Part shown: positions 4,621 to 32,372 of the stretch, piece by piece | Position numbering within the stretch: the first letter of the stretch is position 1 | How the letters are laid out: each line of letters opens with the position of its first letter | Source: Arhodomonas aquaeolei DSM 8974 | Lineage (GTDB): Bacteria > Pseudomonadota > Gammaproteobacteria > Nitrococcales > Nitrococcaceae | Length of the DNA: 64,000 nucleotides | NCBI RefSeq assembly: GCF_000374645.1 | Contig: NZ_KB894812.1 | Coordinates: 1 to 64,000 of the forward strand | Direction: 5' to 3' | Program-made: the position numbers and the translations under genes | The notes under the pieces: generated by a model | What the model was told of the DNA's origin: nothing | Databases searched by the model: none | What the model saw: only the letters and a program-made list of their open reading frames with translations

Positions 4621-4738
4621 CTGTTCACCCTCTTCGCTCCACGGGACCGGACCAGGGGATCGCGGGAGACTCGCCGCGACCGCGCCCGCCATGACCACCC
4701 GGGCACCGGGGACACGGCATCCGCCGTGCCACCGGCGC

Positions 4739-13064: not shown

Positions 13065-13078
13065 CGCCCTGCCCCCCT

Positions 13079-15491: not shown

Positions 15492-16505
15492 CTACTCCGC
15501 GTTCAGCGCCTCGATCTGGTCGTGGAAATACGCCAGCGCCGCCTCGCCATCGACCCCACGCTCCGCCGCGGTCTCCACCCAGTCCGCGCGAACCGGCGCC
15601 AGGCGCTCGGCCAGCCGGTCGCGGGCGTCGCCGTCCAGCCGGACGAAACGCACGCCGGCGCCCCTGAGCGTCTCCCGCGCCTCGCGCGCCTTGCGGTCCC
15701 ATACCCGGGCGAAGCGCCGCGCCATGGCCTCGCCGGAGAGCGCCTCGATGGCCTCGCGGTCCGCCTTGGAGATGGCGTTCCACTTGTCGCGGTTCATCAC
15801 CAGGTACTGGCTGCTGTGGGCGAAGCCCCCGGGCACCGTGACCGCGGTGTCGACGTAGTCCTGCAGCCGGAAGCTGACGATGGAGTCGCTCTGGAAGAAC
15901 GTGCCGTCGATCACGCCGCGGGAGAGCAGCTCGTAGCTCTGGGAGGCAGGCGCGGAGATCGGCGTCATACCCAGGCGCTGGGCGACCTCGCCGGTGGTCG
16001 CGCCGAGCACCCGGACCTTGCGCCCGGACAGATCGCCGACGCCGGCGACGTCGCCCCCGCGCAGGAAGATCTGCGCCGGGGTATTGGTCCACAGCGAGAG
16101 CAGCTTGACGCCCTCGTGCTCGTTGGCGGGCCGGAAGTAGCGCTGGTAGGTCCGCCAGTAGGCCACCGAGTTGGCCTCGGCGTCGTCGGCGAGCAGCGGC
16201 AGCTCCGCCATCCCGGTGAGCTTGAACCGCGCCGGCGTGTAGCCGTGCACGCCGAAGGCGAGGTCCGCGACGCCGTCGCGCACCAGGTCGAAGTGGGCCT
16301 CGGGCTTGGCCATCGCCTGCATGATCTCGACGGTCACGCGGCCGTCGGTGGCCTCGGCGACGTCCTCGGCCCAGGGCCGGATCATCTCCGTGACCACGTA
16401 GTGCTCCGGCGGCAGCCAGTTGGAGAAGCGCAGGGTCACGTTGCCCGCGGCGGCGGGCACGGCGGCGGCCAGCATCAGGGCGGCGGCGATCAGTCGGTTC
16501 AGCAT
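15492..16505 (-). CDS. dctP: TRAP transporter solute-binding protein 1 (337 aa)
   Basis: Periplasmic DctP-type receptor. A signal peptide (MLNRLIAAALMLAAAVPAAAG) precedes the mature domain, which starts VTLRFSNWLPPEHY. I chose ATG 16505 because AGGAG lies 8 bases upstream. TRAP receptors bind organic acids through a conserved Arg; GRKVRVLGATTG (about residues 150-162) matches that region. It is clearly a paralogue of the binding protein at 18345-19361: both carry NWLPP, GVHGYTP/SVHGYTP and SVAYWR. It is the last gene of the TRAP operon and lies 92 bp before the Rieske oxygenase operon, so its ligand may be the oxygenase substrate. Confidence 0.9.
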   Translation of the reverse strand: MLNRLIAAALMLAAAVPAAAGNVTLRFSNWLPPEHYVVTEMIRPWAEDVAEATDGRVTVEIMQAMAKPEAHFDLVRDGVADLAFGVHGYTPARFKLTGMAELPLLADDAEANSVAYWRTYQRYFRPANEHEGVKLLSLWTNTPAQIFLRGGDVAGVGDLSGRKVRVLGATTGEVAQRLGMTPISAPASQSYELLSRGVIDGTFFQSDSIVSFRLQDYVDTAVTVPGGFAHSSQYLVMNRDKWNAISKADREAIEALSGEAMARRFARVWDRKAREARETLRGAGVRFVRLDGDARDRLAERLAPVRADWVETAAERGVDGEAALAYFHDQIEALNAE

Positions 16506-16531
16506 GTTGTTCACTCCTTGCCCGCGCGGGG

Positions 16532-17821
16532 CTACATCATCGACGGCAGCCACAGGGTGATCGCGGGGATGAACGCGAGCACCAGCAGCCGGACGATGTC
16601 CATGAGCAGGAACGGCGTCACGCCGCGGAAGATCGTGCCCAGCCGGGTCTCCGGCAGCACGGTGTTGAGCACGAACACGTTGAGTCCGATGGGCGGGGTG
16701 ATCAGGCTGATCTCGATGGCCACCACCACGACGATGCCGAACCAGATCGGATCGAAGCCGAGCCCCTGCACGATGGGGAAGAAGATCGGCACGGTGAGCA
16801 GCAGCATCGACAGGCTCTCCAGCACCGCCCCGAGCACCAGGTACAGGCCCAGTATGATGAGGATCACCGCCATCGGCGCGAGGTCCGCCGCGCTCACCCA
16901 GGCGGCGAGGTCGTCGGGCATCCCCGCGAGGTTGACGAAGTTGGAGAACACCACCGCGCCGATGAGGATCGCGAACATCATCGCCGTGGTGCGCGCGGTC
17001 TCCAGCAGCAGCCGGTAGAACGACGCCGGGGTCAGCGCCCGCCGCCACAGCGCCAGCACCAGCGCCCCGCTCGCGCCGATGCCGGCGGCCTCGGTGGCGG
17101 TGAACACGCCCAGGTAAATGCCGCCCATCACCAGCGCGAACAGCGAGAGCACGCCGCCGACGGCGCGCAGCGCACGCAGGCGCTCGCCGAACGCGAGCTT
17201 CGGGTACGGCTCGGTGGCGTCGCCGGTCCACCAGAAGTGCAGCCGCACCGCCGCCATGTAGCCGAGCACGCCGAGCAGCCCCGGCACCAGGCCGGCGATG
17301 AACAGCTTGCCGATGTTCTGCTGGGTGATGATCCCGTAGAGCACGAGGATCACGCTCGGGGGGATCAGCACGCCGAGGGTCCCGCCGGCGGCGATCACGC
17401 CGCTGGAGACCGCCTCGGAGTAGCCGTAGCGCCGCATCGACGGCATCGCCACCTTGGACATGGTCGCGGCGGTGGCGAGCGAGGAGCCGCACACCGAGCT
17501 GAAACCGCCGCAGGCGGCGACCGTGGCCATCGCCAGTCCGCCCTTGCGGTGGCCGAGCCAGGCGTTGCTGGCGGCGTAGAGGTCGTCGGCGAGCCGGGCA
17601 TGCACGATGAGGTTGCCCATCAGCACGAACAGCGGCACCACCGTCAGGGTGTAGGACTTGCCGGTGTCGTAGCCCACCTGCCCGAGCAGGGACAGCGCCG
17701 GGTCCACGCCGAGGATGGCGGCGACCCCGACCACGCCCACCAGCATCATGGCGAAGGCGATGGGCAGGCCGAGCACGATCAGTCCGAGCACGGCGGCGAG
17801 CCCCGGGAGCCAGTATTCCAT
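16532..17821 (-). CDS. dctM: TRAP transporter large membrane subunit (429 aa)
   Basis: DctM-type permease with about 12 membrane helices. Family hallmarks include GLPIAFAMMLVGVVG (about residues 19-33), GGFSSVCGSSLATAATMSKVAMP (about 107-130) and GTLGVLIPPSVILVLYGI. It couples uptake of an organic acid to a sodium gradient together with DctQ. It starts 11 bp after dctQ and ends 26 bp before dctP1. Confidence 0.93.
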   Translation of the reverse strand: MEYWLPGLAAVLGLIVLGLPIAFAMMLVGVVGVAAILGVDPALSLLGQVGYDTGKSYTLTVVPLFVLMGNLIVHARLADDLYAASNAWLGHRKGGLAMATVAACGGFSSVCGSSLATAATMSKVAMPSMRRYGYSEAVSSGVIAAGGTLGVLIPPSVILVLYGIITQQNIGKLFIAGLVPGLLGVLGYMAAVRLHFWWTGDATEPYPKLAFGERLRALRAVGGVLSLFALVMGGIYLGVFTATEAAGIGASGALVLALWRRALTPASFYRLLLETARTTAMMFAILIGAVVFSNFVNLAGMPDDLAAWVSAADLAPMAVILIILGLYLVLGAVLESLSMLLLTVPIFFPIVQGLGFDPIWFGIVVVVAIEISLITPPIGLNVFVLNTVLPETRLGTIFRGVTPFLLMDIVRLLVLAFIPAITLWLPSMM

Positions 17822-17832
17822 GCCGCGCCTCC

Positions 17833-18348
17833 TCAGCCGTCACCGGGGGCGCGCAGGCCCGTGGCGACGGCGAACGCGTTGCCCGCGAGGATCACCGCCG
17901 CCAGCCCCGTGAGCGCCGCCATGACCGCCGCCACCGGCCCCAGCGGGATGCCGAGGAACATGGTGGCGTCGCCGTAGGTGAACAGCCGCGCGGCGTGCGC
18001 GGCGAGCCGCCAGGCCAGCACGCCGGCGACCCCGGCGCCGACCAGGTGCACGACGCTCTCCTGCACCCGCCGTGCCGCCGGCCCCAGACGCTCGGTGAGC
18101 AGGGTCACGGAGACGTTGCCGCGCTCGAGACAGACCAGCGGCAGGCCCGCGTAGATCAGCAGCGCCATGGCCACCTCGCTGATCTCGAAGGCCCCGAGCA
18201 GCGGGGCATCGAAGAAGTAGCGCCCGACCACGTCCACGCTGGTCACCGCGAGCATGAGCACCAGCAGGCAGGCGGCGACGGCGCCGATGACGCCGCGCAA
18301 CCCGCGCACGCCCCGGACGAGAGCGACGGCTGCCGGGGTCCGCATCAC
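17833..18348 (-). CDS. dctQ: TRAP transporter small membrane subunit (171 aa)
   Basis: DctQ-type protein with four predicted helices: ACLLVLMLAVTSVDVVGRYFF (about residues 26-46), ISEVAMALLIYAGLPLV, and two more near VHLVGAGVAGVLAW and GPVAAVMAALTGLAAVI. It pairs with DctM. Its ATG overlaps the stop of the upstream binding protein gene (ATGA), so expression is coupled. Confidence 0.9.
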   Translation of the reverse strand: MMRTPAAVALVRGVRGLRGVIGAVAACLLVLMLAVTSVDVVGRYFFDAPLLGAFEISEVAMALLIYAGLPLVCLERGNVSVTLLTERLGPAARRVQESVVHLVGAGVAGVLAWRLAAHAARLFTYGDATMFLGIPLGPVAAVMAALTGLAAVILAGNAFAVATGLRAPGDG

Positions 18349-19361
18349 TCGGCCCCGGCGGCCTCGAGCTCGCGGTGCAGTGCGTCCAGGAACGCCTGCC
18401 CGTCGACCCCGTCCTCGGCGACCCGCTCGAGCACGCGCTCGCGCAGGCCGTCGGCCTGCTCGGCGATCGCCTCGATCATGGCGTCGTCGGCCTGCTCGAT
18501 GCGCACGCCGGCGGCACGCAGGTCCTTGCGCCCCTGGCGGTCCGCCCGGTCCCAGGCCCGGCCGGCCAGGCGCGCGAGGTATTCGCCGGAGACACTGTCG
18601 ATGGCGGCGCGCTCGTCATCGCTCAGGGACTGCCACTTCGCCTGGTTCATCACCACATAGAAGCTGACGGTGTAGAGCCCGCCGGGGACGACGGTGCCGT
18701 AGTCCACCGTGTCCTGGAGGTTGAAGAAGGTCACGCTCTCGTAGGGGAAGACGATGCCGTCGGCCACGCCCTGGGAGAGGAGCTCGTAGGACTGCGAGGA
18801 GGGCGCGTTGACCGGTACCACCCCGAGCTCCTCGCTGAGCTGGGCGGCCACGCCGCCGGGCACGCGCAGCTTCAGCCCGCTCAGGTCATCGAGGCTGTGC
18901 ACCGGCCGCCGGCTGTTCCAGATATGCCCGGGCCCGTGGGTAAACAGGCCCAGCAGGTGGACGCCGCGGTGCTCGCCGGAATCCGCCATGGTCTCCTGGT
19001 AGGCGCGCCAGTAGGCCACCGACTTGACCTCGGCGGAGGGTGTCTGCAGCGGCAGCTCGGCGAGCTCGAAGACCGAGAAGCGCCCCGGCGTGTAGCCGTG
19101 CACGCTGAAGCCGACGTCCGCCAGGCCGTCGGCGACGAGGTCGTACTGCGCCGGCGGGGGGCCGAGCGGCGAGCTCATCACCTCCACCTGCACGCTGCCG
19201 CCGGTGGCCTTCTCCACCGCCTCACCCCAGGGCTTGAGCACGTCCGAGACCAGCAGGTGGCTCGGCGGCAGCCAGTTGGCGACGCGGAGCGTGGTCTGGG
19301 ACAGCGCCAGCGGCGCCCAGGCAAGTAGCGCGATCGCGAGTAGTCCGGTCCAGCGCGTCAT
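18345..19361 (-). CDS. dctP: TRAP transporter solute-binding protein 2 (338 aa)
   Basis: Second DctP-type receptor and first gene of the TRAP operon. The signal peptide is MTRWTGLLAIALLAWAPLALS, and GGAGGAG sits 8 bases before the ATG at 19361, which I prefer to the ATG at 19394. Mature domain starts TTLRVANWLPPSHL. It shares the fold and many motifs with binding protein 1 but differs in the central substrate region (HGPGHIWNSRR). A TRAP system with two receptors and one permease could take two related acids. It is divergent from a MarR gene. Confidence 0.9.
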   Translation of the reverse strand: MTRWTGLLAIALLAWAPLALSQTTLRVANWLPPSHLLVSDVLKPWGEAVEKATGGSVQVEVMSSPLGPPPAQYDLVADGLADVGFSVHGYTPGRFSVFELAELPLQTPSAEVKSVAYWRAYQETMADSGEHRGVHLLGLFTHGPGHIWNSRRPVHSLDDLSGLKLRVPGGVAAQLSEELGVVPVNAPSSQSYELLSQGVADGIVFPYESVTFFNLQDTVDYGTVVPGGLYTVSFYVVMNQAKWQSLSDDERAAIDSVSGEYLARLAGRAWDRADRQGRKDLRAAGVRIEQADDAMIEAIAEQADGLRERVLERVAEDGVDGQAFLDALHRELEAAGAE

Positions 19362-19423
19362 GATCGTGTCTCCTCCGTCATGGGCCGGGGTCACAGGGCC
19401 ACGGTGTGTCTTTGATATTTATC

Positions 19424-19586: not shown

Positions 19587-20033
19587 ATGCGAGAGCCGGT
19601 GCGCTACTTCACCGACGACTACCTCTCCTACCTGCTCGCCCGGGCGAGCACGCTCGTGAGCGAGCAGTTCCACGCCCGCGTGAGCGCGGCGGGGCTGCGC
19701 ATCCCCGAGTGGCGCGTGCTCGCGACGCTCTACGACCGCGAGGCCATGACCATCGGCCACCTCGCCGAGATCACCCTGCTGACGCAGCCCACGCTCACGC
19801 GGGTGGTCGCGCGGCTGGAGGACTGCGGGCTGGTGCTCCGGCGCAACGAGCCGGAGGACCGGCGCATCACCCGGGTATCGATCACCCCGGCGGGGCGGGA
19901 TAAGGTGCAGCCGCTGATCGAGCGGGCCAAGGCCCACGAGGCCCAGGTGCTCAGCGGCTACCCGGAGGCGGAGGTGGAGACGCTCAAGGCCGGCCTGCGC
20001 GAGATGATCGCGCGCCTGAGGGAGGGGCAGTAA
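19587..20033 (+). CDS. MarR-family regulator 2 (148 aa)
   Basis: Winged-helix repressor: GHLAEITLLTQPTLTRVVARL (about residues 57-77) is the recognition region and EPEDRRITRVSITPAG the wing. It is divergent from the TRAP operon and probably controls it, through the inverted repeat at 19424-19453. It is less similar to MarR 1 and 3 than those two are to each other. Confidence 0.88.
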   Translation: MREPVRYFTDDYLSYLLARASTLVSEQFHARVSAAGLRIPEWRVLATLYDREAMTIGHLAEITLLTQPTLTRVVARLEDCGLVLRRNEPEDRRITRVSITPAGRDKVQPLIERAKAHEAQVLSGYPEAEVETLKAGLREMIARLREGQ

Positions 20034-20064: not shown

Positions 20065-21645
20065 TCAGGCCCCGACGCGCACGGGACGGGCCCGGGTGGT
20101 GGCCGCCTGCGGCGTCTCCCCGTCGTCGCCACCGTTCAGGGCGGCAACCGCGGCGGCAAGCTTCTCGCCCTGCTCGTCGGCCAGCGCCGCCTCGCGCAGG
20201 CGCCGGACCACCGCGGCGGGCTCCTCGTCGCCGTCATAGCCGTCGATGACGCCCATGATGGTGTTGAAGTTGCTCAGCCCGCGGGCGTGGGTGTCGCCAT
20301 AGCCCTTGACCAGGCGCTGGCACCGGGCGATCTCCACCGCCAGCGCGTAGTCCGGAGCCACGGTCTGGTGGATGCGCCCGAGCCAGGCCTCGATACGCGC
20401 CATCTCCTCGCGGAAGCGCAGGGTCGAGCGCCGCCAGCGCCGCATCCGCGAGACGGTCCACAGGAGCATGAACCCCGACAGCGTCGCAGTGCGCACGTGC
20501 CGGCCCTTGCGGGTGAACGGCTCCAGCGGGCGCTGCAGGCGCGGCGAGTTCAGCAGCAGCCGGCCCAGCGGCGCGGGCAGGGTGTCGCAGATCTCCTCGA
20601 TGCGCGGGTGCATGAACTCGGTGACGTAGACGAGCTGATCGTCGCCGGCGCGCACCTCCCGGCGAAAGCGCTCGAACCGGCTGGCCCGCGTCTTGAGGTC
20701 CGCCACCCGGATGGTGTCCTCGTAGGACATCCACAGCGCCAGGTACCGGGCCGCCTCGGTGGTGAGCAGGTAGTCCCGGGTCTCGCCGCCGTGGGCCTCG
20801 TCCAGCGCCAGCACCGCCTCCACGCGGTCGACGTAGTCCCGCGCGTAGGCCGGGTCCTGGTAGTCGGCGAGCCGGCGCATGCCCTCGACCACGTTGAAGT
20901 GGGCGACCTCGGGGAAGCGGCCGCGCACGCGCTCGAGCTGCTCGCGCAGCACGGGGTGCTGCGGGTCGGGCTCGGACGGCGCCGGGCCGCTGTGATCCGG
21001 CGCCTCGGGCTCGCCCTGGGCCCGTTCGAAGGCGTCGCCGAAGGCCGCCAGGCTCGCCTCCACGCCGATGCCCCCGCGGCGGATGGCCTCCTCGAACGCG
21101 GCCCGCTCGAAGGGCAGCCGCCCGGAGCCGGCCAGCGCCCCGAACAGCGTCGAGCTGATGACGCTGCCGTGGGACTCCGCCACCGCGGCCATGTCGAAGT
21201 AGATAAACGACTTCGCCGCCTGCTCCCCGGCCTCCAGGACCTTGCCGTCGTCGAGGATGCCATCGCCCATCGCGGTCTTCTCGCCGATGGCGTAGACGCG
21301 GTGGGTGGAGGCGATGAGCGTGGTGCGATCCGGGGTCACGATCCCGCGCTGTACCGCACGCCCGGCCTCCATGAACTCCGCGGCGATGACCACGTCCACG
21401 TCGCCGGGCATGGGCATGAGCGCCAGCACCGGGTCCCGGCCGGCCTTGCGGGCGGCGTGCTCGGGGAAGATCTCCACGTAGTACAGCGTCGCCCCGGTGC
21501 GCTGGGCGACGCCGGGCACGGAGGTGGTCTGGGCGAGGTAGCCCTGGGACTCGGCGAGGCTGACGATCCAGTCCGCCAGCACGCCGCCGCCCTGCCCGCC
21601 CATCGCCTGTATGGCGATGCTGATCGGTCTGATGGAACGGTCCAC
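20065..21645 (-). CDS. iorB: Indolepyruvate-type 2-oxoacid:ferredoxin oxidoreductase, beta subunit (526 aa)
   Basis: Residues 1-210 are the pyruvate-ferredoxin-oxidoreductase gamma-type domain, beginning ISIAIQAMGGQGGGVLADWIV and containing VPGVAQRTGATLYYVEIF. The remaining 300 residues are the extra C-terminal domain found in the long IorB form of aerobic proteobacteria; archaeal IorB is only about 200 residues. With IorA it oxidatively decarboxylates aryl 2-oxoacids to acyl-CoA and CO2, reducing ferredoxin. It follows iorA by 19 bp. The partner ferredoxin is not encoded nearby. Confidence 0.85.
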   Translation of the reverse strand: MDRSIRPISIAIQAMGGQGGGVLADWIVSLAESQGYLAQTTSVPGVAQRTGATLYYVEIFPEHAARKAGRDPVLALMPMPGDVDVVIAAEFMEAGRAVQRGIVTPDRTTLIASTHRVYAIGEKTAMGDGILDDGKVLEAGEQAAKSFIYFDMAAVAESHGSVISSTLFGALAGSGRLPFERAAFEEAIRRGGIGVEASLAAFGDAFERAQGEPEAPDHSGPAPSEPDPQHPVLREQLERVRGRFPEVAHFNVVEGMRRLADYQDPAYARDYVDRVEAVLALDEAHGGETRDYLLTTEAARYLALWMSYEDTIRVADLKTRASRFERFRREVRAGDDQLVYVTEFMHPRIEEICDTLPAPLGRLLLNSPRLQRPLEPFTRKGRHVRTATLSGFMLLWTVSRMRRWRRSTLRFREEMARIEAWLGRIHQTVAPDYALAVEIARCQRLVKGYGDTHARGLSNFNTIMGVIDGYDGDEEPAAVVRRLREAALADEQGEKLAAAVAALNGGDDGETPQAATTRARPVRVGA

Positions 21646-21664
21646 GAATGCCTCCTGTGCGCCG

Positions 21665-23806
21665 CTACATCGCGTAGCGTTCGATCCGCCGCGCCTCGCG
21701 GCGCTGGAAGAAACCGATCACCGCGTCGCGCACGCGCTTGGCGAACCGGTCCCAGGCGGTCGGGTTGTGGATGATCTCGGCCCGGTAGAACGACGGGCAG
21801 AGCACCGCGGCGTGCGCGACCTGCCCGCACAGCCCGCAGCCCACGCAGCTGTCCTCGACGTGGGCCACCGGGTCGCTGCGCAGCGGGTCCGGGTTGGGCT
21901 TGACCGACAGCGACGGACAGCCGGAGAGGCGGATGCAGGAGTGATCGCCGGTGCAGGTGTCACTATCCACGCCGAAGCGCTCGCGCACCACGCGCTTGCC
22001 GCCCTTGAGCAGGTTGCGGAATACCGGCTTCTCGCGGCGCTGGCGGTTGAGCATGCACTCGGACTCGGCGATCACCACCTTGGGCCCGGAGGACTCGGTC
22101 GTCAGCGCCTCGCGCAGGGTGTCGCGCATGGTGCCGACATCGTAGGTGTTGGTGATCCGCCGCACCCAGTTCACGCCGACGCCGCGCACCGCCTGCTCGA
22201 TGGACTGTTTCGTGCTGCGGATCGGGTTCTCCGCCTTCGAGGAGAGGATGTCCTGGCCGCCGGTCGCCGCGGAGTAGCCGTTGTCCACGATCACCGTGAC
22301 GTTGTCGCTCTGGTTGAACACCGCGTTGCCCACACTGCTCGCCAGGCCGTTGTGCCAGAACCCGCCGTCGCCGACGATGCTGATGCTGCGCCGCGCCCCC
22401 GGGGCGTTGAACGCCGCCGCGCCGGCACCGCCCAGACCGTAGCCCATGGTGGTGTTGCCGATGTTGAACGGCGGCAGGATCGAGAACAGGTGGCAGCCGA
22501 TATCGCAGCTCACGTGGTGCTCGCCGAGCTCGCGCTCGACCAGCTTCATGGCGGTGAAGATCGGCCGCTCCGGGCAGCCGGTGCAGAAGCCCGGCGGGCG
22601 CGGCGGCACCACCTCGTCCAGCCCCTCCATGCCGGCGGCGGCGCTGGAGGCCGCGGCGCCGGGCAGGCGCGCGACGTCCGGGGCATGCTGTTCCAGGAAC
22701 TGCCGGATGCCATCGGCGAGCACCGCGCCGGTGTACTCGCCGGCCTTGGGCAGCATGTCCTTGCCGTGGATGCGCGTCTGCAGGTCGGCGCGGCGGAGGA
22801 TCGCGTGCAGGGCCTGCTCGATGTACTCCGGCTGGCCCTCCTCGATCATCAGCACCGCATCCTTGCCGGCGCAGAACGACTTCACCTCGTCGTCCACCAG
22901 CGGGTAGGTGACGTTGAGCACATACAGCGGGATGCGGGTATCGCCGAAGCTGTCCGCCAGCCCGAGGCGCTCCAGCGCGCGGATGACGCTGTTGTAGAGC
23001 CCGCCCTGGAGGATCAGGCCGATGTCGCCGCGCTCGCCCTCGAAGAACTCGTTGAGCCCGTGCTGCTGGATGAACGACACTGCCGCCGGCCAGCGGCGGT
23101 CGACCTTCTCGTGCTCGTGCAGGAAGCTCGAGGGCGGCAGCACGATGCGGCTCGGATCGCGCACCGGGTGCTCCATGGCGTCGCTGAGCGTGTACGCCGG
23201 GCGCACGTTGTCCTTGGCCTCGAAACGGCCGTGGACGTGGCAGGCGCGGATGCGCAGCTCCAGCATCACCGGCGTGTTGCTCGCCTCCGAGAGCTCGAAC
23301 CCCTTCTCCACCGACTCGACGATGCTGCCCAGGTTGGGCCGCGGATCGAGGAGCCACATCTGCGACTTCATGGCGAAGGCGTGGGTACGCTCCTGCATGA
23401 TGCTGGAGCCCTCGCCGTAGTCCTCGCCGACGATCACCAGCGAGCCGCCGGTGACGCCACCGGAGGCGAGCTGCGCGAGGGCATCGGAGGCGACGTTGGT
23501 GCCCACGGTGGACTTCCACGCCACCGCCCCGCGAATGGGATAGTTCACCGACGCGGCCAGGGTCGCCGCGGCGGTGGCCTCGGAGGCGGACGACTCGAAG
23601 TGGACGTCCAGCTCCTCGAGGATCTCGTTGGCGTCGGTGAGCACGTCCATCAGGTGGGAGATGGGCGCACCCTGGTAGCCGGCGACGTAACCGACCCCCG
23701 ACTGCAGCAGCGCCTTGGTGACCGCGAGTATCCCCTCTCCGTGGAATTCCTCGCCGGCCCCCATGCGCAGCTTCTTGACTTCTTTCGCGAAAGAACGCTC
23801 CGCCAT
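21665..23806 (-). CDS. iorA: Indolepyruvate-type 2-oxoacid:ferredoxin oxidoreductase, alpha subunit (713 aa)
   Basis: TPP enzyme of the IOR family. The N-terminal POR domain includes GYQGAPISHLMDVL (about residues 44-57). The TPP motif is GDGGFWHNGLASSVGNAVFN (about 484-503) followed by VDNG. The C-terminus carries iron-sulfur ligands: CTGDHSCIRLSGC and CVGCGLCGQVAHAAVLC (about 620-675). Known IorAB enzymes convert indolepyruvate or phenylpyruvate to arylacetyl-CoA. Here the operon begins with an isatin-hydrolase-like gene and lies beside the 2-aminobenzoyl-CoA pathway. An aryl-glyoxylate such as isatinate, giving 2-aminobenzoyl-CoA, is therefore an attractive substrate; that is inference. 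Confidence 0.88.
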   Translation of the reverse strand: MAERSFAKEVKKLRMGAGEEFHGEGILAVTKALLQSGVGYVAGYQGAPISHLMDVLTDANEILEELDVHFESSASEATAAATLAASVNYPIRGAVAWKSTVGTNVASDALAQLASGGVTGGSLVIVGEDYGEGSSIMQERTHAFAMKSQMWLLDPRPNLGSIVESVEKGFELSEASNTPVMLELRIRACHVHGRFEAKDNVRPAYTLSDAMEHPVRDPSRIVLPPSSFLHEHEKVDRRWPAAVSFIQQHGLNEFFEGERGDIGLILQGGLYNSVIRALERLGLADSFGDTRIPLYVLNVTYPLVDDEVKSFCAGKDAVLMIEEGQPEYIEQALHAILRRADLQTRIHGKDMLPKAGEYTGAVLADGIRQFLEQHAPDVARLPGAAASSAAAGMEGLDEVVPPRPPGFCTGCPERPIFTAMKLVERELGEHHVSCDIGCHLFSILPPFNIGNTTMGYGLGGAGAAAFNAPGARRSISIVGDGGFWHNGLASSVGNAVFNQSDNVTVIVDNGYSAATGGQDILSSKAENPIRSTKQSIEQAVRGVGVNWVRRITNTYDVGTMRDTLREALTTESSGPKVVIAESECMLNRQRREKPVFRNLLKGGKRVVRERFGVDSDTCTGDHSCIRLSGCPSLSVKPNPDPLRSDPVAHVEDSCVGCGLCGQVAHAAVLCPSFYRAEIIHNPTAWDRFAKRVRDAVIGFFQRREARRIERYAM

Positions 23807-23863
23807 AGCTCTCTACTCCGTGCCCGCGGCGACCGCCAACGGCCGCCGCGGACGACAGCGGGT

Positions 23864-24652
<789 letters not shown>

Positions 24653-24771
24653 GATGCGCTCTCCTCCCGGATATGGCGTTTGGCGTTGGCGTGTTCTGAA
24701 GGGCCGGGAACGCCGGTAACTGTAGACGATTACCGCGGCGGCCCGGGACCGTGTCCGCTTATGTTGTTTAC

Positions 24772-24787
24772 GTATAAAACATTTAAC
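24772..24787 (+). promoter_or_regulatory. Candidate operator A for the anthranilate genes
   Basis: GTATAAAACATTTAAC lies between the divergent cyclase and marR 3 genes. It matches 13 of 16 bases with the inverted copy at 27953-27968, in the next divergent promoter region. The overlapping TGTTT-N7-AAACA gives it dyad symmetry. It is a candidate site for MarR 3. Confidence 0.45.
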
Positions 24788-24893
24788 TGTCAGATATCAA
24801 CCCGTCACGCGTACCGCTGCCGCTGGTATCATTGCGTGTCGATCCGCCGGCGTCCCGCCGCCGGCGGACGCAGTCGCGAACGAGGAGGAGCGA

Positions 24894-25406
24894 ATGACAC
24901 AGCCCGGCCGTGAGCACGGCGGCGCGACGCCGCTCGACGAGGCGACCATGCTGCCCCACAGCAAGCGCTCGCTGCGCGCGTGGCTGCACCTGATCAAGTG
25001 CTCCAAGCGCGTGGAGCAGGCCATCTCCGATCTCTTCCGCGACGATTTCGACAGCTCGCTGTCGCGCTTCGACGTGCTCGCGCACCTGGACTACGTCCAC
25101 CCCGAGGCCCTGAGCACATCCGCGCTCGCCCAGCGGCTGCTCGCCTCCAAGGGCAACATCACCCGGCTGCTCGACCGCATGGAGGGCGACGGGCTGATCC
25201 ATCGCCGCCCCTCCAGCCGCGACCGCCGGGTGAGCGACGTCTACCTCACCGACACCGGCACCCGGCTGTTCCATGCCATGGCCGACGCCCACGAGGCGTG
25301 GTCCGACGAGATCTTCGGCATCCTCAACGACGGCGAGCTCGACGAGCTCGTCGGCCTGCTCGACCGCGTGCGCCACCGCCTGGAGGCCCGCGGGGACCAG
25401 GACTGA
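24894..25406 (+). CDS. MarR-family regulator 3 (170 aa)
   Basis: Winged-helix repressor with recognition region STSALAQRLLASKGNITRLLDRM (about residues 76-98) and wing SSRDRRVSDVYLTDTG. GAGGAGCG precedes the ATG. It stands between the cyclase-iorAB operon (divergent) and the monooxygenase/reductase gene (convergent, 42 bp), so it is the best candidate regulator of the anthranilyl-CoA genes. It resembles MarR 1. Ligand unknown; an aromatic CoA thioester is plausible from the family at such clusters. Confidence 0.88.
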   Translation: MTQPGREHGGATPLDEATMLPHSKRSLRAWLHLIKCSKRVEQAISDLFRDDFDSSLSRFDVLAHLDYVHPEALSTSALAQRLLASKGNITRLLDRMEGDGLIHRRPSSRDRRVSDVYLTDTGTRLFHAMADAHEAWSDEIFGILNDGELDELVGLLDRVRHRLEARGDQD

Positions 25407-25448
25407 GCCCCGGCGACACCGTCGTCGGCGCCGCCGGTACGACCGTAC

Positions 25449-27815
25449 TCAGGCGGCCCGGCCCGCTCCCGGGCGCTCGGCCCCGGCACCGGAGTCGTCC
25501 GTGACCTCGTGGCTGCGCGGGCGCGTGCGCACCTGCAGGTCGGTGAGCTCCTCGCGGTCCTTCTCGGCCGTGCGGTAGGCCTGGAAACGGCCGGCACCGT
25601 AGACCCGGTGCCAGGCGACGTCCCGCTGCTGGTACCAGGCCCCGGCATGCAGGGTGAAGTACGGGTCGGAGAGGTGCGGCCGCGCCAGCGCGACCAGGTC
25701 CGCACGCTCCGCCATGAGGATGGTGTTCACCTGGTCGGCGGTGGTGATGTTGCCCACGGCCATGGTCGCGACGCCGCTCTCGTTGCGCACCTTGTCGGCG
25801 AACGGGGTCTGGAACATGCGCCCGTATACGGGCTTCTGGTCCGGCACCGTCTGCCCCGCGGAGACGTCGATGAGGTCGACCCCGGCGTCGCGGAAGGCCC
25901 GGGCGATGGCGCTCAGGTCGGCGTCCGAGAGGCCGCCCTCCTTCCAGTCGGTCGCCGAGATACGCACCGACATCGGCTTGTCCTGCGGCCAGACCGCGCG
26001 GACCGCCTCGAAGACCTCCAGGGGATAGCGCAGACGGTTCTCGATGCCGCCGCCGTACTCGTCGTCGCGGACGTTGGTCAGCGGCGAGAGGAAGCTCGCG
26101 AGCAGGTAGCCGTGGGCCATGTGGACCTCGAGCATGTCGAAGCCCGCCTCCTCGGCGAACCGCGCCGAGCGCACGAAGTCGTCCCGCACCCGGTCCATGT
26201 CGGCACGGCTCATCTCCACCGGCACTTGGCTCTCGCCCTCGAAATAGGGGATGGGCGAGGCGGAATAGACCGGCCAGTTGCCCTCCGGCAGGGGGTGGTC
26301 CATGCGCTCCCAGCCCACCTGGGTCGAGCCCTTGCGCCCGGCGTGACCGAGCTGCATGCAGATGCGCGTGTCCGACTGGGCGTGGACGAAATCCACGATC
26401 CGGCGGAAGGCGTCGCGCTGGGCCTCGTTCCACAGCCCGGTGCAGCCGGGGGTGATTCGGGCGTCCGGGGACACGCAGGTCATCTCCGTGTACATCAGCC
26501 CGGCGCCGCCGACGGCACGGCTGCCGTAGTGCACCAGGTGCCAGTCGTTGGGCACGCCCTCCTCGGCCATATACTGCGCCATCGGCGAGACCACCACGCG
26601 GTTGGGCACGGTCATACCGCGCAGGCGCAGCGGCGTGAACATCGGCGGCGTGCCGTCGGCGGCCTCGAAGCCGCGCTCGCGCTCGCGGCGCAGGAACCAC
26701 GCGTTGCAGCGGTCGACGAAGGACTGGTCACGCAGCTGGAGGTTCTCGTAGGTCAGCTTCTTCGCCCGGGACATGAGCGCGAAGGCGAACGGCTCCGGGT
26801 CCATGCCCCAGTGCCGGTCGATGTTCTCGAACCAGGCGAGGGAGACGTCCGCGGCGTGCTGGGTGATCTCCACCTCGGTGCGGCGGCCCTCCTCGAAGTC
26901 CGCCAGGGCCGCGGCGACGTCGCCGGTGTGCGCCTTCACGGACTCGAACAGGGCGATGGCGCTCTCCATGGCGAGCTTGGTGCCCGAGCCGATGGAGTAG
27001 TGCGCGGTGTGCTGGGAGTCACCGAGCAGGACGATGTTGTCCTTGACCCAGCGTTCGTTGCGGATCATCGGGAACTGCCGCCAGATCGAGCGGTTGGCGA
27101 TCAGCGGGTGGCCGTCGAGTTCCTGGTCGAAGACCTCCTCGAGCACCGGGATGAACTCGTCCTCGCCCATCCGGTCGAAACCCAGCCCCTGCCAGGTCTC
27201 CGGTGCCATCTCCACCACCCAGGTGCTGCGGCCCGGCTCGTACTGGTAGCAGTGGGCGACCACCACGCCGTACTCCGTCTCCTGGAAGAAGTACTTGAAG
27301 GCATCGAACTCGCGGCTCGAGCCCAGCCAGCAGAAGTAGTTCCGGCGCCAGTCGAAGCGCGGCCGGAACCAGTCGCGGTGATTCTCGCGGATGCGGCTGT
27401 TGATGCCGTCGGCGGCGACGATGATGTCGCTGTCGGCGAACTGTGACTCGTCCTCAACCTCGGTGTTGAAATGCATGGTCACGCCGAGCTCGCGGCAGCG
27501 CTGCTGGAGGATCTGCAGCAGGGTCAGCCGCGAGCAGCCGCAGAAGCCATTGCCGCCTGAAGTGAGCACGTGGCCCTGGTAGTGCACGTCCACGTCGCCC
27601 CAGTAGGCGAAGCTGCGGCGGATCGCCTCGTAGGAGGCGTTGTCGTAGTCGTCGAGGAATCCGAGGGTCTCGTCGGAGAACACCACGCCGAAGCCGAAGG
27701 TGCTGTCCGGCGCATTACGCTCGTAGACGCTGACCTCCCAGTCCGGCCACTGTTTCTTGGTCAGCAGCGCCATGTACAGCCCGCCCGGTCCGCCGCCGAT
27801 GATGGTGATCTTCAT
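25449..27815 (-). CDS. abmA: 2-Aminobenzoyl-CoA monooxygenase/reductase (788 aa)
   Basis: Two enzymes in one chain. Residues 1 to about 380 form a single-component FAD monooxygenase (GGGPGG at 7-12, [14 protein letters not shown] near residue 290). From about 400 to 760 there is an old-yellow-enzyme FMN domain ([39 protein letters not shown]). In Azoarcus evansii this fusion hydroxylates 2-aminobenzoyl-CoA and reduces the ring to a 2-amino-5-oxocyclohexene carboxyl-CoA. ATG 27815 has GGAGGAG upstream; the longer frame to 27914 is not supported. Salicylyl-CoA 5-hydroxylases share the fold; the aminobenzoate ligase and RidA neighbours favour aminobenzoyl-CoA. Confidence 0.92.
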
Positions 27816-27952
27816 CGCTCCTCCGCAGTCGTCGTTCTGTCTGCCCGATTGTCCGTATCCGGCCGCCAGCGGCCGTGGATAGAGGCAGTATAATCGCGTT
27901 ATCTTACACGTCAACTTCTTACCTATAATGGATATGCCACAGTTCGATCATA

Positions 27953-27968: not shown

Positions 27969-28040
27969 TTGAATTAAATCGGGGCACCGCTTAGCCTGAG
28001 CGCACCAATACGGGGCATGCCGCCCCCGGGAGCGGAACGG

Positions 28041-28496
28041 ATGCAGGAACTGATCACGTCACTGCCGGTCACCGGCGTCTGGTGCGACGCCACCGCGACG
28101 GTACACGGCTGGCGCTACCTGGAGGTGGTCAACCGCCTGATCGAGGACTGGTTCGAGCGGGTCGGGCATTCGTTTACCGACATGCACGTCAGCGCGGATA
28201 CCGGCACCCCCACCACCCGGCTCACCCTCGACGTGGCCACGCCGGCACGGCTCGGCGAGACCCTGGAGGTGCGGCTGCGCCTGCTCCGGCTCGGCCGCAG
28301 CTCGCTGGGCTTCCGGGTTACCGGGACCTGTGACGGCGCGCCGCGGCTGGACGCCGAGGCCACGCTGGTGTGGGTGCACAACGAAAACGGCCGACTGGCC
28401 AGCCGCCCCATCCCGGAGGCGCTGCGCGGGCGCATGCGCACGTGGCTCGATGGATCCGGGGACAAGGAAACCGTACAACCGGGAGCCGAGGCATGA
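28041..28496 (+). CDS. Hotdog-fold thioesterase-like protein (151 aa)
   Basis: Resembles 4-hydroxybenzoyl-CoA thioesterases: an early Asp in GVWCDATATVHGWRYLEVVNR, a long helix (EVVNRLIEDWFERVG) and a sheet ending VTGTCDGAPRLDAEATLVWV. The usual [11 protein letters not shown] core is replaced, though the Asp is retained. I prefer the ATG at 28041 (GGAGCGGAACGG upstream) to that at 28017. It is the first gene of the plus-strand beta-oxidation operon and overlaps the SDR start (ATGA). It may release CoA from a pathway intermediate or dead-end thioester. Confidence 0.75.
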   Translation: MQELITSLPVTGVWCDATATVHGWRYLEVVNRLIEDWFERVGHSFTDMHVSADTGTPTTRLTLDVATPARLGETLEVRLRLLRLGRSSLGFRVTGTCDGAPRLDAEATLVWVHNENGRLASRPIPEALRGRMRTWLDGSGDKETVQPGAEA

Positions 28497-29257
28497 ACGA
28501 TAACGCCCCACGCCACGCCGTGATCACCGGCGGCGGCACCGGCATCGGTGCCGCCATCGCCCGGCGCCTCGCCGCCGAGGGTATGGACGTCACCCTGATG
28601 GGCCGCCGCGCCGATCCGCTGGAGGACACCGCCGCCCGCATCCCGGGGGCACGCGCGATCACGGCGGACGTCACCGATGCCGACGCCGTCGCCGCGGCGT
28701 TCACCGAGGCGCGCTCGGCACACGGCCCGGTGGACGTGCTGGTGAACAACGCCGGCGCCGCGCGCACCGCGCCGTTTCACCGGCTCTCTGCCGGGGACTG
28801 GCAGGCGATGCTCGACGTCAATCTCTCGGGGGTCTTCCACTGCATGCAGGCCGCCGTCGCCGACATGCGCGAGAGCGGCAGCGGGCGCGTGGTCAACATC
28901 GCCAGCACCGCCGCGCTCAAGGGCTACCCCTACGTGGCCGGCTACTGCGCCGCCAAGCACGGCGTCGTGGGGCTGACCCGGGCGGTGGCCCTGGAGCTCG
29001 CCCGCGAACGGATCACGGTCAACGCCGTGTGCCCCGGCTACACGGACACCGAGCTGGTGGCCAACGCCCTGGACACCATCACCGAGAAGACCGGGCGCTC
29101 CCGCGAGGAGGCGCTCCAGGAGTTCGTGAAGGTCAACCCGCAGCGGCGCCTCGTCCAGCCCGAGGAGGTCGCGGAGACGGTGGCCTGGCTGTGCCGCGCG
29201 AACGCCGCCGCGGTCACCGGCCAGGCGATCTCGGTCTCCGGCGGCGAGGTGATGTAG
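28493..29257 (+). CDS. SDR-family 3-hydroxyacyl-CoA dehydrogenase of the anthranilate operon (254 aa)
   Basis: Classical SDR with cofactor loop [12 protein letters not shown] (about residues 13-24), NNAGAA, catalytic Ser in NIASTAA and Tyr-x3-Lys in YCAAKHG. FabG/PhaB-like. In the Azoarcus abm cluster a 3-hydroxyacyl-CoA dehydrogenase acts after ring reduction; this is the likely counterpart. It is translationally coupled to the preceding thioesterase-like gene and 76 bp from the enoyl-CoA hydratase. Confidence 0.87.
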
Positions 29258-29333
29258 CCGCCGGCGCGCGCGCCGCGGAACCGCGGCCCCGACCCGGCGG
29301 AACGGACGACGCGAATCACAGGAGAGAACGAGC

Positions 29334-30143
29334 ATGGACCCGAACACCTACCGCCCCGAGCACTTCCGCTGGGAGATGCGCGGCGAGACCGCGCTGGTCA
29401 CCCTGGACCGGCCGGAGCGCAAGAACCCGCTGACCTTCGACTCCTACGCCGAGCTGCGCGACCTGTTCCGCTCGCTGGTGTACGTCGACGGGGTCAAGGC
29501 GGTCGTGATCCAGGGCGCCGGCGACAACTTCTGCTCCGGCGGCGACGTGCACGAGATCATCGGCCCGCTGACCGAGCGCGACATGAAAGGCCTGCTCGCC
29601 TTCACCCGCATGACCGGCGACCTGGTCAAGGCCATACGCGCCTGCCCGCAGCCGGTGATCGCCGCCATCGACGGCATCTGCGCCGGTGCCGGCGCGGCCA
29701 TCGCCATGGCCGCGGACATCCGCTACGGCACCCCCCGGGCGAAGGTCGCCTACCTGTTCACCCGGGTGGGGCTCGCCGGCTGCGACATGGGCGCCTGCGC
29801 GATCCTGCCGCGCATCATCGGCCAGGGCCGCGCCTCGGAGCTGCTGTTCACCGGGCGCAGCATGCGCGCCGAGGAGGGCGAGCGCTGGGGCTTCTACAAC
29901 CGCCTCTGCGAGCCCGAGACACTCGGCGACGACGCCCTCGCCATGGCGGAGCAGCTCGTGGCCGGGCCGAACTTCGCCCACGGCATCACCAAGACCATGC
30001 TCAACCAGGAGTGGAACATGGGACTGGACCAGGCCATCGAGTCGGAGGCCCAGGCCCAGGCGGTGTGCATGCAGACCGAGGACTTCCGCCGCGCCTACCG
30101 GGCCTTCGTCGCCCGTGAGCAGCCGGTGTTCGAGGGCGACTGA
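29334..30143 (+). CDS. Enoyl-CoA hydratase/isomerase (269 aa)
   Basis: Crotonase-family protein. The oxyanion-hole segments are [11 protein letters not shown] (about residues 63-73) and [19 protein letters not shown] (about 112-130). The second catalytic position lies in [22 protein letters not shown] and carries Asp rather than the Glu of mitochondrial crotonase, as in many aromatic-pathway members. It should hydrate or open a cyclic unsaturated CoA ester after ring reduction. GGAGAG precedes the ATG. One base separates it from the acyl-CoA dehydrogenase gene. Confidence 0.88.
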
Positions 30144-30144
30144 C

Positions 30145-31320
30145 ATGAGCGACCGCAGCTTCCTCGACTGGCCCTTCCTCGAGGCCCGGCACCGCGAGCA
30201 CGCCGCGGACCTGGACGCCTGGGCGCGGGAGGCCGTGACCGGCCTGGACGAGTCGGACGTGGACGCCACCTGCCGCGAGCTCGTCCGCCGTCTCGGCGCC
30301 GGCGGCTGGCTCGCCCCCTGCGTGGCCCTGGACGCCGGCGACCGCCTGGACGTGCGCACCCTGTGCCTGACCCGCGAGACCCTCGCGCGGCACGACGGGC
30401 TCGCCGACTTCGCCTTCGCCATGCAGGGGCTCGGCACCGGTCCCATCTCGCTGTTCGGCACCCCGGAGCAGCGCGGGCGCTGGCTGCCGCCGGTGCGCGC
30501 CGGCGAGGCCGTCGCCGCGTTCGCCCTCTCCGAGCCGGAGGCGGGATCGGACGTCAGCGCCCTCGCCACCACGGCCCGGCGCGAGGGCGACGAGTACGTG
30601 CTCGACGGCACCAAGACGTGGATATCCAACGGCGGCATCGCCGACGTCTACACGGTGTTCGCCCGCACCGGCGAGGGTCCCGGTGCGAAGGGCCTCTCGG
30701 CGTTCGTCGTGCCCGCCGGTACCCCGGGCTTCTCGGTGCCCGGGCGTATCGAGCTGATGGCGCCGCACCCGCTCGGCACCCTGCGCTTCGAGGGCTGCCG
30801 CATCCCCGCCGCGAACCGGATCGGCGAGCCCGGCAAGGGCTTCCGCATCGCCATGGCCACTCTGGACGTGTTCCGGTCCACGGTGGGCGCGGCGGCCCTC
30901 GGCTTCGCCCGGCGCGCGCTGGACGAGGCCCTTGGCCACACCACCCGCCGCGAGCTCTTCGGCGCACCGCTCGCCGACATGCAGCTCACCCAGGCGAAGC
31001 TCGCGGACATGGCGCTGGACGTCGACGCCAGCGCGCTGCTGGTCTACCGCGCCGCCTGGGCGAAGGACTGCCACGCCGAGCGGGTCACCCGCGAGGCCTC
31101 GATGGCCAAGCTCCACGCCACCGAGCACGCCCAGCGGGTGATCGACGCGGCGGTGCAGATGCACGGCGGCCACGGCGTCACCTCCGGCGTGCCCGTGGAG
31201 CGGCTCTACCGCGACATCCGCGCGCTGCGGATCTACGAGGGTGCCTCGGAGATCCAGCAGCAGGTGATCGCCCGCCAGGTGCTCTCGGCCTTCCGCGACG
31301 GCGGGGGTAACGGGGCATGA
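30145..31320 (+). CDS. Acyl-CoA dehydrogenase (391 aa)
   Basis: FAD acyl-CoA dehydrogenase. [19 protein letters not shown] (about residues 127-145) and [13 protein letters not shown] are the FAD/substrate loops; the catalytic Glu is in [11 protein letters not shown] near residue 365. The start just after the hydratase stop, and the ATGA overlap with the next thioesterase gene, show tight operon structure. It is expected to oxidise a cyclohexenyl or ring-opened CoA ester of the anthranilate route. Confidence 0.88.
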
Positions 31321-31745
31321 GCACGCCGGTCCACCGCGCCACCCGCCAGGTGCGTTTCCAGCACTGCGACCCGGCGGGCATCGTGTTCTACCCCCGCTAC
31401 TTCGAGCTCCTGGAGGAGATCGTGACCACCTGGCTCGCCTCGCTCACCGACGCCGGCAGCGAGGCCGCCCTGCTCGCTGCCCGCGGCGAAGCACCGAGGA
31501 TCGAGCGGCTGGAGTGCCGGTTCTCCCGTCCGAGCCTGCTCGGCGAGCACATCGACTACACGCTCGAGGTGCGGGACGTCGACGCCGCCCGCGTGACCCT
31601 CGACTACCGCATCCAGCACGGCACGGAGGAGCGGGTCGCCGGCACGATCGTGCTGCGCTGGTACCGCTTCGCGCCCCGGCCCGAGGCCGCGGCGCTGCCG
31701 CCGACCCTGCGCACGCGGCTGGGCCCGCCGGCGCAACGAACCTGA
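31317..31745 (+). CDS. 4-Hydroxybenzoyl-CoA-thioesterase-family enzyme (142 aa)
   Basis: Canonical hotdog thioesterase: [20 protein letters not shown] (about residues 11-30) contains the catalytic Asp of the 4HBT family, followed by the helix [11 protein letters not shown]. It hydrolyses an aryl- or acyl-CoA. It overlaps the acyl-CoA dehydrogenase stop by four bases and precedes the RidA-like gene by 19 bp. It is the second thioesterase of the operon. Confidence 0.88.
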
Positions 31746-31764
31746 TCCAAGGAGAGTAACCGCT

Positions 31765-32157
31765 ATGCAGACCGTCAATCCGGAAGGCTGGAAGCGCCCC
31801 AAGGGCTACTCCAACGGCACCACCGCCCGGGGCCGCATGGTCTTCACCGGCGGCCTGGTCGGCTGGGACGAGACCGAGAGCTTTCCCAGCAGCGACTTCA
31901 TCGACCAGGTCCGCCAGGTGCTGAAGAACACCGTCGCCGTGCTCGGCGCCGCCGACGCCGGCCCGGAGCACGTCGTGCGCATGACCTGGTACATCACCGA
32001 CAAGCACGAGTACCTGGCGCGGCTCAAGGAGATGGGTGAGGCCTACCGCGAGGTCATGGGCCGCACCTTCCCCGCCATGGCCATGGTGCAGGTCGCCGCC
32101 CTGATCGAGGACGACGCCAAGGTCGAGGTCGAGACCACCGCCGTGGTACCGGACTGA
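31765..32157 (+). CDS. RidA-family protein with altered active site (130 aa)
   Basis: RidA/YjgF fold of standard length. RidA enzymes hydrolyse enamines/imines, releasing ammonia. Compared with E. coli RidA, the FPARSC segment reads FPAMAM, so Arg105, which binds the substrate carboxylate, is Met105, and Cys107 is Met. The Glu120 position is retained (Glu121 in KVEVE) and so is the Tyr near residue 15. Losing the carboxylate anchor would suit a CoA thioester substrate. Ring reduction of 2-aminobenzoyl-CoA gives a vinylogous enamine, so this protein is a good candidate for the deamination step; that is inference. AAGGAG precedes the ATG. Confidence 0.85.
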   Translation: MQTVNPEGWKRPKGYSNGTTARGRMVFTGGLVGWDETESFPSSDFIDQVRQVLKNTVAVLGAADAGPEHVVRMTWYITDKHEYLARLKEMGEAYREVMGRTFPAMAMVQVAALIEDDAKVEVETTAVVPD

Positions 32158-32241: not shown

Positions 32242-32372
32242 GTCCCGTAACGCGGCTGACCGCCGCTGACGGGACGGATAACGACAATGCGGCCGCCGGG
32301 CCGCCACCCCACGTGGAGACCACCGCCCACGTGCGGCCCCGGACGGCACGCGGACAAGGGGAGAGAGGAGCA

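Follow-up and report, generated by a model that had tools for sequence, protein, structure and literature searches.

An iad-type auxin-degradation locus in Arhodomonas aquaeolei with a candidate isatinate:ferredoxin oxidoreductase

The stretch of DNA analysed here (the window, 64,000 nt; positions 1–64,000 of contig NZ_KB894812.1 of Arhodomonas aquaeolei DSM 8974, gene coordinates being window positions) carries on its minus strand the genes of an isatin hydrolase homolog and of IorA and IorB, the subunits of a 2-oxoacid:ferredoxin oxidoreductase, beside that of the monooxygenase/reductase ACMR. A sequence-only reading of this DNA had located these four genes and proposed that an enzyme of the IOR type turns isatinate, the hydrolase product, into 2-aminobenzoyl-coenzyme A (CoA); the open reading frame (ORF) list and NCBIfam and Pfam searches place all four as it had. 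They belong to what, judged by sequence, is a complete iad-type locus for degradation of indoleacetate (IAA), the plant hormone auxin, a kind of locus already known, and the gene content between about 3.4 and 34 kb is consistent with a single catabolic region (Table 1).

The hydrolase had been described as an isatin-hydrolase-like cyclase protein of 262 residues with an HxGTHxD motif, and this description holds at the sequence level. The motif reads HTGTHFD, and the top four Protein Data Bank (PDB) matches are all isatin hydrolases (5nmp, 5nnb, 5nna and 4j0n; E 8e-106 to 7e-86), followed by a ‘cyclase family protein’ (8f9x, 6e-27). Mapped by spacing onto residues whose roles are named in PMC6117287, the Mn-ligand sites are kept as H72, H76 and D78, the His79/Asp193/His207 sites as H82, D197 and H211, and the stacking Trp59/61/80 sites as W62, W64 and W83. 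On these features the protein is a full-length isatin hydrolase homolog. A kynurenine formamidase identity was rejected, the arylformamidase family TIGR03035 scoring 36 bits against a cut-off of 223 and kynurenine formamidase (KynB) structures matching only at E about 1e-5.

IorB, composed of Pfam POR and DUF6537 regions, lies well over the NF006179 cut-off of 348 bits. IorA contains the Pfam domain TPP_enzyme_C and scores 297.2 bits against TIGR03336 (IOR_alpha), under the equivalog cut-off of 650.9. With a thiamine pyrophosphate (TPP) domain, a POR domain and C-terminal cysteine sets for iron–sulfur clusters, the pair falls within the 2-oxoacid:ferredoxin oxidoreductase superfamily, and IorA falls outside the indolepyruvate:ferredoxin oxidoreductase equivalog. 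A second, distant IOR-type gene (27%) lies elsewhere in the genome. A phmmer search of the PDB with IorA gave no match at E 0.001 and only weak ones up to E 10 (best 0.018); the AlphaFold model, built on a 15-row alignment, is of low confidence (mean pLDDT 65.3, pTM 0.53), and a PDB fold search with it, which returned other TPP enzymes at TM about 0.2, was left unused for substrate inference.

Separated by gaps of 19 bp (IorB–IorA) and 57 bp (IorA–hydrolase), the three genes can be a single minus-strand operon. The sequence-only reading had one operon beside ACMR; this stands for the three genes, and ACMR is a minus-strand unit of its own, set apart from them by the plus-strand MarR gene at 24894–25406. 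The ACMR ORF spans 25449–27914, with an ATG at 27815 giving a protein of 788 residues.

The Rieske oxygenase large subunit, with a small-subunit gene adjoining, has two close PDB relatives, 9o71 and 7yls, the next entry scoring 144 bits; 9O71 is IadDE of Variovorax paradoxus CL014 (PMC12633357). The MarR regulator at 19587 is closest to 3cdh and the MarR_73 structures, which assigns it by sequence to the IadR group; 7KFO is V. paradoxus MarR_73 with IAA, and MarR_73 has been placed in that group (PMC9613470). Three relatives with an IadD 79–80% identical to 9o71 (loci L144, L146 and L148), on which iad gene order was judged rather than on the V. paradoxus sequence itself, have the order MarR, iorA, iorB, ferredoxin reductase, iadD, iadE, CoA ligase, thiolase, DUF35, isatin hydrolase and short-chain dehydrogenase/reductase (SDR), the ferredoxin reductase gene giving no match in L148. 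By this order, iorA and iorB would be IadA and IadB in the naming of PMC9613470, located before iadC. Genes for CoA ligase, thiolase, DUF35 protein, isatin hydrolase, SDR and IorAB are all present in the window; in the family of a Comamonas genome, 8 of 100 genomes hold an IadD match, the three relatives being among these eight. Indole or indoleacetate had been suggested as the input, and the iad-type locus makes indoleacetate the most likely one here, indole-type clusters being found in other genomes.

Table 1 Features of the catabolic region in the window.
Feature	Position	Strand	Basis
CaiB-type CoA-transferase and glutaryl-CoA dehydrogenase, probable end of lower pathway	3379..5920	-	Pfam; PDB 3d6b glutaryl-CoA dehydrogenase, 643 bits
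SDR dehydrogenase (IadJ by gene order)	7894..8622	-	Pfam; 68–73% in L144, L146, L148
DUF35/ChsH2-like protein of the iad set	8619..9803	-	Pfam; locus comparison
IadG-like thiolase	9764..10930	-	Pfam Thiolase_C_1; locus comparison
IadF-like acyl-CoA ligase	10941..12560	-	NCBIfam search; 63–67% in L144, L146, L148
IadE-like Rieske oxygenase small subunit	12573..13082	-	Ring-hydroxylating small-subunit families below cut-off; gene order as L144, L146, L148
IadD-like Rieske oxygenase large subunit	13079..14404	-	PDB 9o71, 702 bits; 7yls, 700 bits
IadC-like ferredoxin reductase	14422..15399	-	Pfam Fer2 and NAD_binding_1; order matches L144, L146
TRAP transporter, two solute-binding proteins and permease subunits, probable uptake	15492..19361	-	ORFs; Pfam DctP for 18345–19394; TRAP homologs also at iad loci L129, L147
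MarR regulator, IadR-like	19587..20033	+	Top PDB matches 3cdh, 7kki, 7kfo
IorB (IadB-like), POR-domain subunit with DUF6537	20065..21645	-	526 aa; NF006179, 726 bits; Pfam
IorA (IadA-like), TPP and iron–sulfur subunit of 2-oxoacid:ferredoxin oxidoreductase; proposed isatinate:ferredoxin oxidoreductase	21665..23806	-	713 aa; Pfam TPP_enzyme_C; TIGR03336 below cut-off; GDG...DN stretch; C-terminal cysteines
Isatin hydrolase homolog (IadI by gene order)	23864..24652	-	262 aa; PDB matches; active-site residues; position between DUF35 and SDR genes in iad loci L144, L146, L148
Second MarR regulator	24894..25406	+	NCBIfam MarR-type matches, all below cut-off
ACMR, fusion of the 2-aminobenzoyl-CoA monooxygenase/reductase or salicylyl-CoA 5-hydroxylase type	25449..27815	-	788 aa; NF006101 over cut-off; Pfam FAD_binding_3 and Oxidored_FMN
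Lower pathway: thioesterase, SDR, enoyl-CoA hydratase, acyl-CoA dehydrogenase (30145–31320), thioesterase, RidA	28017..32157	+	Pfam, except 30145–31320 (labelled by eye from ORF)
Probable 2-aminobenzoate-CoA ligase	32313..33998	+	TIGR02262, 351.8 bits against cut-off 375.25; co-distribution with ACMR

Scanning with the hydrolase turned up 42 loci, spread over 41 genomes; many of the loci have short flanks, and many of the genomes are metagenome-assembled genomes (MAGs). Of the 42 loci, 22 show an IorA or IorB match, at a distance of no more than 300 bp from the hydrolase in 18 cases; genome-wide, an IorA of the same subfamily occurs in 39 of the 41 genomes (best identity at least 53%, some in pieces). 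The two genomes without one (G030 and G035) are also without ACMR, which was counted from 46% identity upwards over a match longer than 500 residues (in two pieces for G009) and is present in 37 of the 41, or 40 at E 0.001. Hydrolase homologs of a Planctomycetota MAG (L031) and of Kluyvera sichuanensis (L036) come from genomes with neither IorA-subfamily nor ACMR matches.

In a panel of 369 genomes of the window’s class, with at most three candidates per genome scored for IorA and ligase and two for ACMR, a hydrolase at 50% or more occurs in five genomes (some match at E 0.001 in 42 of 369) and an IorA at 60% or more in 11 (58 of 369 at E 0.001; G148 and G231 were counted in pieces, one G231 piece being at 48% and one carrying a stop). 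IorA is found in four of the five hydrolase genomes against 7 of 364 others (Fisher p 2e-6), and ACMR in 10 of the 11 IorA genomes against 6 of 358 others (p 8e-15); the Fisher tests, here and below, take genomes as independent, ignoring kinship, and use thresholds chosen after the matches were seen.

IorAB is shared by two isatin-forming routes. In Marinobacter (L001), Vibrio atypicus (L024) and Bacteroidota (L032, L034 and L037), the genes of hydrolase, IorAB and ACMR are accompanied by those of a styrene-monooxygenase-like oxygenase (Pfam Smoa_sbd in L001), a flavin reductase and an SDR, and no Rieske match lies within these five stretches. Three further clusters of the styrene-monooxygenase-like kind (L130, L136 and L137) have no ACMR match within the stretch. 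In a 57-row tree of IorA, a 51-row clade (99/99) takes all but one of the rows from known hydrolase genomes, the exception being L135 from G037; the clade includes six hydrolase-less panel rows (L075, L077, L078, L079, L082 and L116) and two iad rows (L149 and L150). The window IorA is sister to the Marinobacter IorA of the other route (97/90), and route labels on 17 rows take a minimum of four changes. Five genomes (G018, G020, G023, G025 and G027) carry two or more hydrolase genes: one belongs to an iad cluster, and a second adjoins the sole subfamily IorA found in that genome, a pattern to be expected if isatinate from both routes is handled by a single IorAB. Action of IorAB on the C2 side chain of IAA was ruled out, IorAB also occurring in the styrene-monooxygenase-like clusters without Rieske genes.

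Two further genes recur around these hydrolases. A class-V aminotransferase-like gene is present in eight loci (L008, L019, L021, L031, L033, L039, L040 and L041), the L019 protein matching Pfam Aminotran_5 and, weakly, a kynureninase C-terminal region, with 33–75% identity for the others; it perhaps marks a third route to isatin. An FAD amine-oxidase-like protein recurs in styrene-monooxygenase/hydrolase/IorAB clusters (L024, L032, L034, L037, L130, L136 and L137).

ACMR is by Pfam an FAD monooxygenase fused to an Old Yellow Enzyme reductase. A RidA gene lies near ACMR in the window and in other ACMR sets, a neighbour that, judged by gene content, fits loss of an amino group better than it fits a salicylyl-CoA label; together with the ligase neighbour and the isatin hydrolase linkage, it favours 2-aminobenzoyl-CoA over salicylyl-CoA as the candidate ACMR substrate. 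Lower-pathway-like gene sets also adjoin ACMR in L011, L015 and L029. The segment 3379–6610 holds the CaiB CoA-transferase, glutaryl-CoA dehydrogenase and a MarR gene; homologs of this dehydrogenase (69–74%) occur near the hydrolase in L001, L029, L030 and L123.

An oxidoreductase that forms the CoA ester directly had been expected to save the ATP-dependent ligase. In the window genome this is not so, the ligase being kept; the distribution of the ligase across other genomes fits it. With orthologs counted at 46% identity or more to the window ligase, the ligase is present in 17 of the 41 hydrolase genomes, all with ACMR (the tally at E 1e-80 is 22, the five added genomes matching at 34–37%), and absent from 20 of the 37 that have hydrolase, IorA and ACMR. 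Among the 20 are genomes of Marinobacter orientalis, Vibrio atypicus, Qipengyuania sp. (its ACMR frame with one stop codon), Sphingobacterium cellulitidis and Soonwooa buanensis, none of them labelled a MAG by title. Membership of the benzoate-CoA ligase family TIGR02262 at its cut-off does not serve to recognise 2-aminobenzoate ligases, the window ligase lying under that value and only 1 of 14 control genomes over it. In the panel, ACMR is found at E 1e-150 in 16 genomes and the ligase at E 1e-110 in 14, one of which (G101) is without ACMR. The ligase accompanies ACMR in 12 of 12 panel genomes without the hydrolase against one of four with it, the window genome (Fisher p 0.007); the three ligase-less ones, G284, G381 and G296, are 84%, 71% and 99% complete, and all their CoA-ligase candidates score at most 224 bits against TIGR02262. 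For the pooled samples the figures are 17 of 37 against 12 of 12 (p 6e-4). Anthranilate dioxygenase (TIGR03228) stays under its cut-off throughout the 20 ligase-less genomes, but it does so in all 14 controls as well, so the sensitivity of this search is undemonstrated.

Together these features outline a pathway. The Rieske oxygenase, CoA ligase, thiolase and dehydrogenase would take indoleacetate through dioxindole to isatin (step order from the literature), which the 262-residue enzyme would hydrolyse to isatinate (2-aminophenylglyoxylate). IorAB would convert isatinate and CoA to 2-aminobenzoyl-CoA by oxidative decarboxylation, passing two electrons to ferredoxin; ACMR would take up the product ahead of β-oxidation-like steps, and the parallel ligase would salvage free anthranilate. 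The gene identities rest on homology and genome distribution, from which the activity, substrate, CoA product and electron acceptor of IorAB are predicted. Owing to the hydrolase linkage, the sharing of IorAB by two routes, the IorA–ACMR association and the absence of the ligase from many genomes, conversion of isatinate to 2-aminobenzoyl-CoA is the most economical explanation for IorAB and, as the sequence-only reading had proposed, the best fit to this indirect comparative evidence. The window thus probably holds an iad locus in which the hydrolase forms isatinate and IorAB forms 2-aminobenzoyl-CoA, with ACMR downstream and the ligase for salvage; here IorAB would supply an additional, ATP-sparing entry, the ligase not being replaced.

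The published iad route runs from IAA through isatin and isatinate to anthranilate (PMC9613470, PMC12633357), and the accessible text of PMC9613470, PMC12633357, PMC10374108 and PMC11630574 assigns no step to iorAB; the iif/ind indole route is likewise described without an IOR-type enzyme (PMC6221969, PMC12538310). Several observations weigh against the proposed step. Wild-type V. paradoxus cultures on IAA show isatinic and anthranilic acid (PMC9613470), so that isatinate is incompletely drained despite the presence of iorAB. Nine genes, iadC-K2, restore anthranilate fully in a locus deletion, and the region is termed a complete pathway (2025 preprint, PMC12633357); in the same work deletion of iadI accumulates C8H7NO2, the formula of dioxindole, isatin not being named. 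The NCBIfam name for ACMR is salicylyl-CoA 5-hydroxylase/oxidoreductase (NF006101, 1132 bits against a cut-off of 1078), and the window genome retains the ligase. In 2 of the 20 ligase-less genomes (G010 and G028) the ACMR frame has one stop codon; a benzoate-CoA ligase family member scores over cut-off in five of the 20 and in none of the other 15, and ligase absence in MAGs can be an assembly gap. Finally, 7 of the 11 IorA panel genomes have no hydrolase at 50% or more (G128, G134, G148, G161, G231, G251 and G254; a cyclase-family match at 39% in G161 and a partial one at 31% in G134), and all seven have ACMR and the ligase. These genomes have either another source of isatinate or a second use of the subfamily. 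Among those inspected other than G128, the neighbours of IorAB differ; isatinate-type-clade IorAB occurs at L114 (G128), L112, L113, L115 and L116, in genomes without a hydrolase match of at least 50%.

The V. paradoxus construct can also be read otherwise. By gene order in the relatives, iadC-K2 seems to be without iorAB, and the terms iorA and iadA are absent from the accessible text of PMC12633357. Strong build-up of C8H7NO3, assigned as isatinic acid (PMC8383072), and of C7H7NO, which is C8H7NO3 minus CO2 and an aldehyde formula, is seen only in locus-deletion strains overexpressing the whole of iadC-K2 (PMC12633357). If the region is without iorAB, this pile-up of isatinate is as the proposed IorAB step predicts, a reading that is ours and not that of its authors.

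Three other roles for IorAB were weighed. It may be an ordinary arylpyruvate:ferredoxin oxidoreductase, acting on indolepyruvate or phenylpyruvate and merely co-regulated with the auxin locus: the nearest named families are indolepyruvate oxidoreductases, and the Variovorax homologs are so labelled (PMC9613470). We consider this unlikely, given the score of IorA at less than half the IOR_alpha cut-off and the other IOR-type gene in the genome, and it leaves unexplained both the hydrolase linkage in IAA and indole clusters and the tie to ACMR. That IorAB oxidises another 2-oxoacid of the ACMR pathway, unrelated to isatin, would suit the panel, where 10 of the 11 IorA genomes carry ACMR but only four carry the hydrolase, and would suit L114 (G128), where IorAB adjoins an ACMR operon without hydrolase (a TetR-like and a metallo-β-lactamase-like ORF, both labelled by eye, lie between). 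Yet 6 of the 16 ACMR panel genomes fall short of the 60% mark for IorA (G055 reaching 54%), and the ligase is found in five of these, so IorAB is dispensable for the ACMR pathway itself. Moreover, where a hydrolase locus shows an IorA or IorB match, that match usually lies within 300 bp of the hydrolase (18 of 22 loci), and such a role seems quite improbable. Least probable, in our estimate, is decarboxylation of isatinate by IorAB without a CoA ester, to 2-aminobenzaldehyde or free anthranilate, followed by the ligase; the reported iad end product is indeed anthranilate and the window genome keeps its ligase, but a ligase ortholog is missing from 20 of the 37 genomes that combine hydrolase, IorA and ACMR, and the aldehyde formula builds up in strains that by gene order are without iorAB (PMC12633357).

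Returning to isatinate as the IorAB substrate, we lean towards the wider view that IadA/IadB is an undescribed isatinate:ferredoxin oxidoreductase (2-aminobenzoyl-CoA forming) that links the isatin-forming routes from auxin and indole with 2-aminobenzoyl-CoA metabolism in Pseudomonadota and Bacteroidota, the anthranilate of iad strains being partly a by-product of escaped isatinate (through 2-aminobenzaldehyde and its oxidation) or of thioester hydrolysis. As the sequence-only reading had supposed, no isatinate-specific enzyme of the IOR type and no such formation of 2-aminobenzoyl-CoA from isatinate was found in the searched literature, which left out most subscription papers; in the searchable literature the reaction assignment appears to be new within a known locus. 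By degrading auxin, iad bacteria influence root growth. Engineered iad strains that carry iadC-K2 are under construction (PMC12633357). If the assignment is true, constructs of iadC-K2 without iorAB halt before the end of the route and let isatinate, aminobenzaldehyde and anthranilate escape, two conserved genes gain a function, 2-aminobenzoyl-CoA metabolism gains an ATP-sparing entry, and bacteria with the monooxygenase but without a ligase ortholog are explained.

Indolepyruvate:ferredoxin oxidoreductase shares with the window pair a two-subunit make-up with TPP and POR domains; the window IorA differs in lying far under the equivalog cut-off, and IorB in being long, with DUF6537, the pair being linked to isatin hydrolase. 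Phenylglyoxylate:acceptor oxidoreductase performs the chemistry proposed for IorAB, from arylglyoxylate to aroyl-CoA, and has a multi-subunit make-up that differs from that of IorAB. The isatin hydrolases of Labrenzia aggregata and Ralstonia solanacearum (PMC6117287) resemble the window protein over the full length and in the active-site residues, the differences from the Labrenzia enzyme LaIHA being Ala at the Gln219 site, as in isatin hydrolase B, and Phe at the Tyr204 site. The styrene-monooxygenase-like, flavin reductase and SDR set of the second route resembles the iif indole genes (PMC6221969). With the iad locus of V. paradoxus CL14 and Bradyrhizobium japonicum (PMC9613470, PMC12633357), the window shares IadC, IadD/E, CoA ligase, thiolase, DUF35 protein, SDR, isatin hydrolase, iorA/iorB and MarR, and the order inside each block is that of the relatives L144, L146 and L148. 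It differs in being split into two blocks, with hydrolase and iorAB as a separate unit, in having between the blocks a TRAP transporter where the literature locus has an ABC solute-binding protein (PMC12633357), and in the ACMR lower pathway that directly adjoins it.

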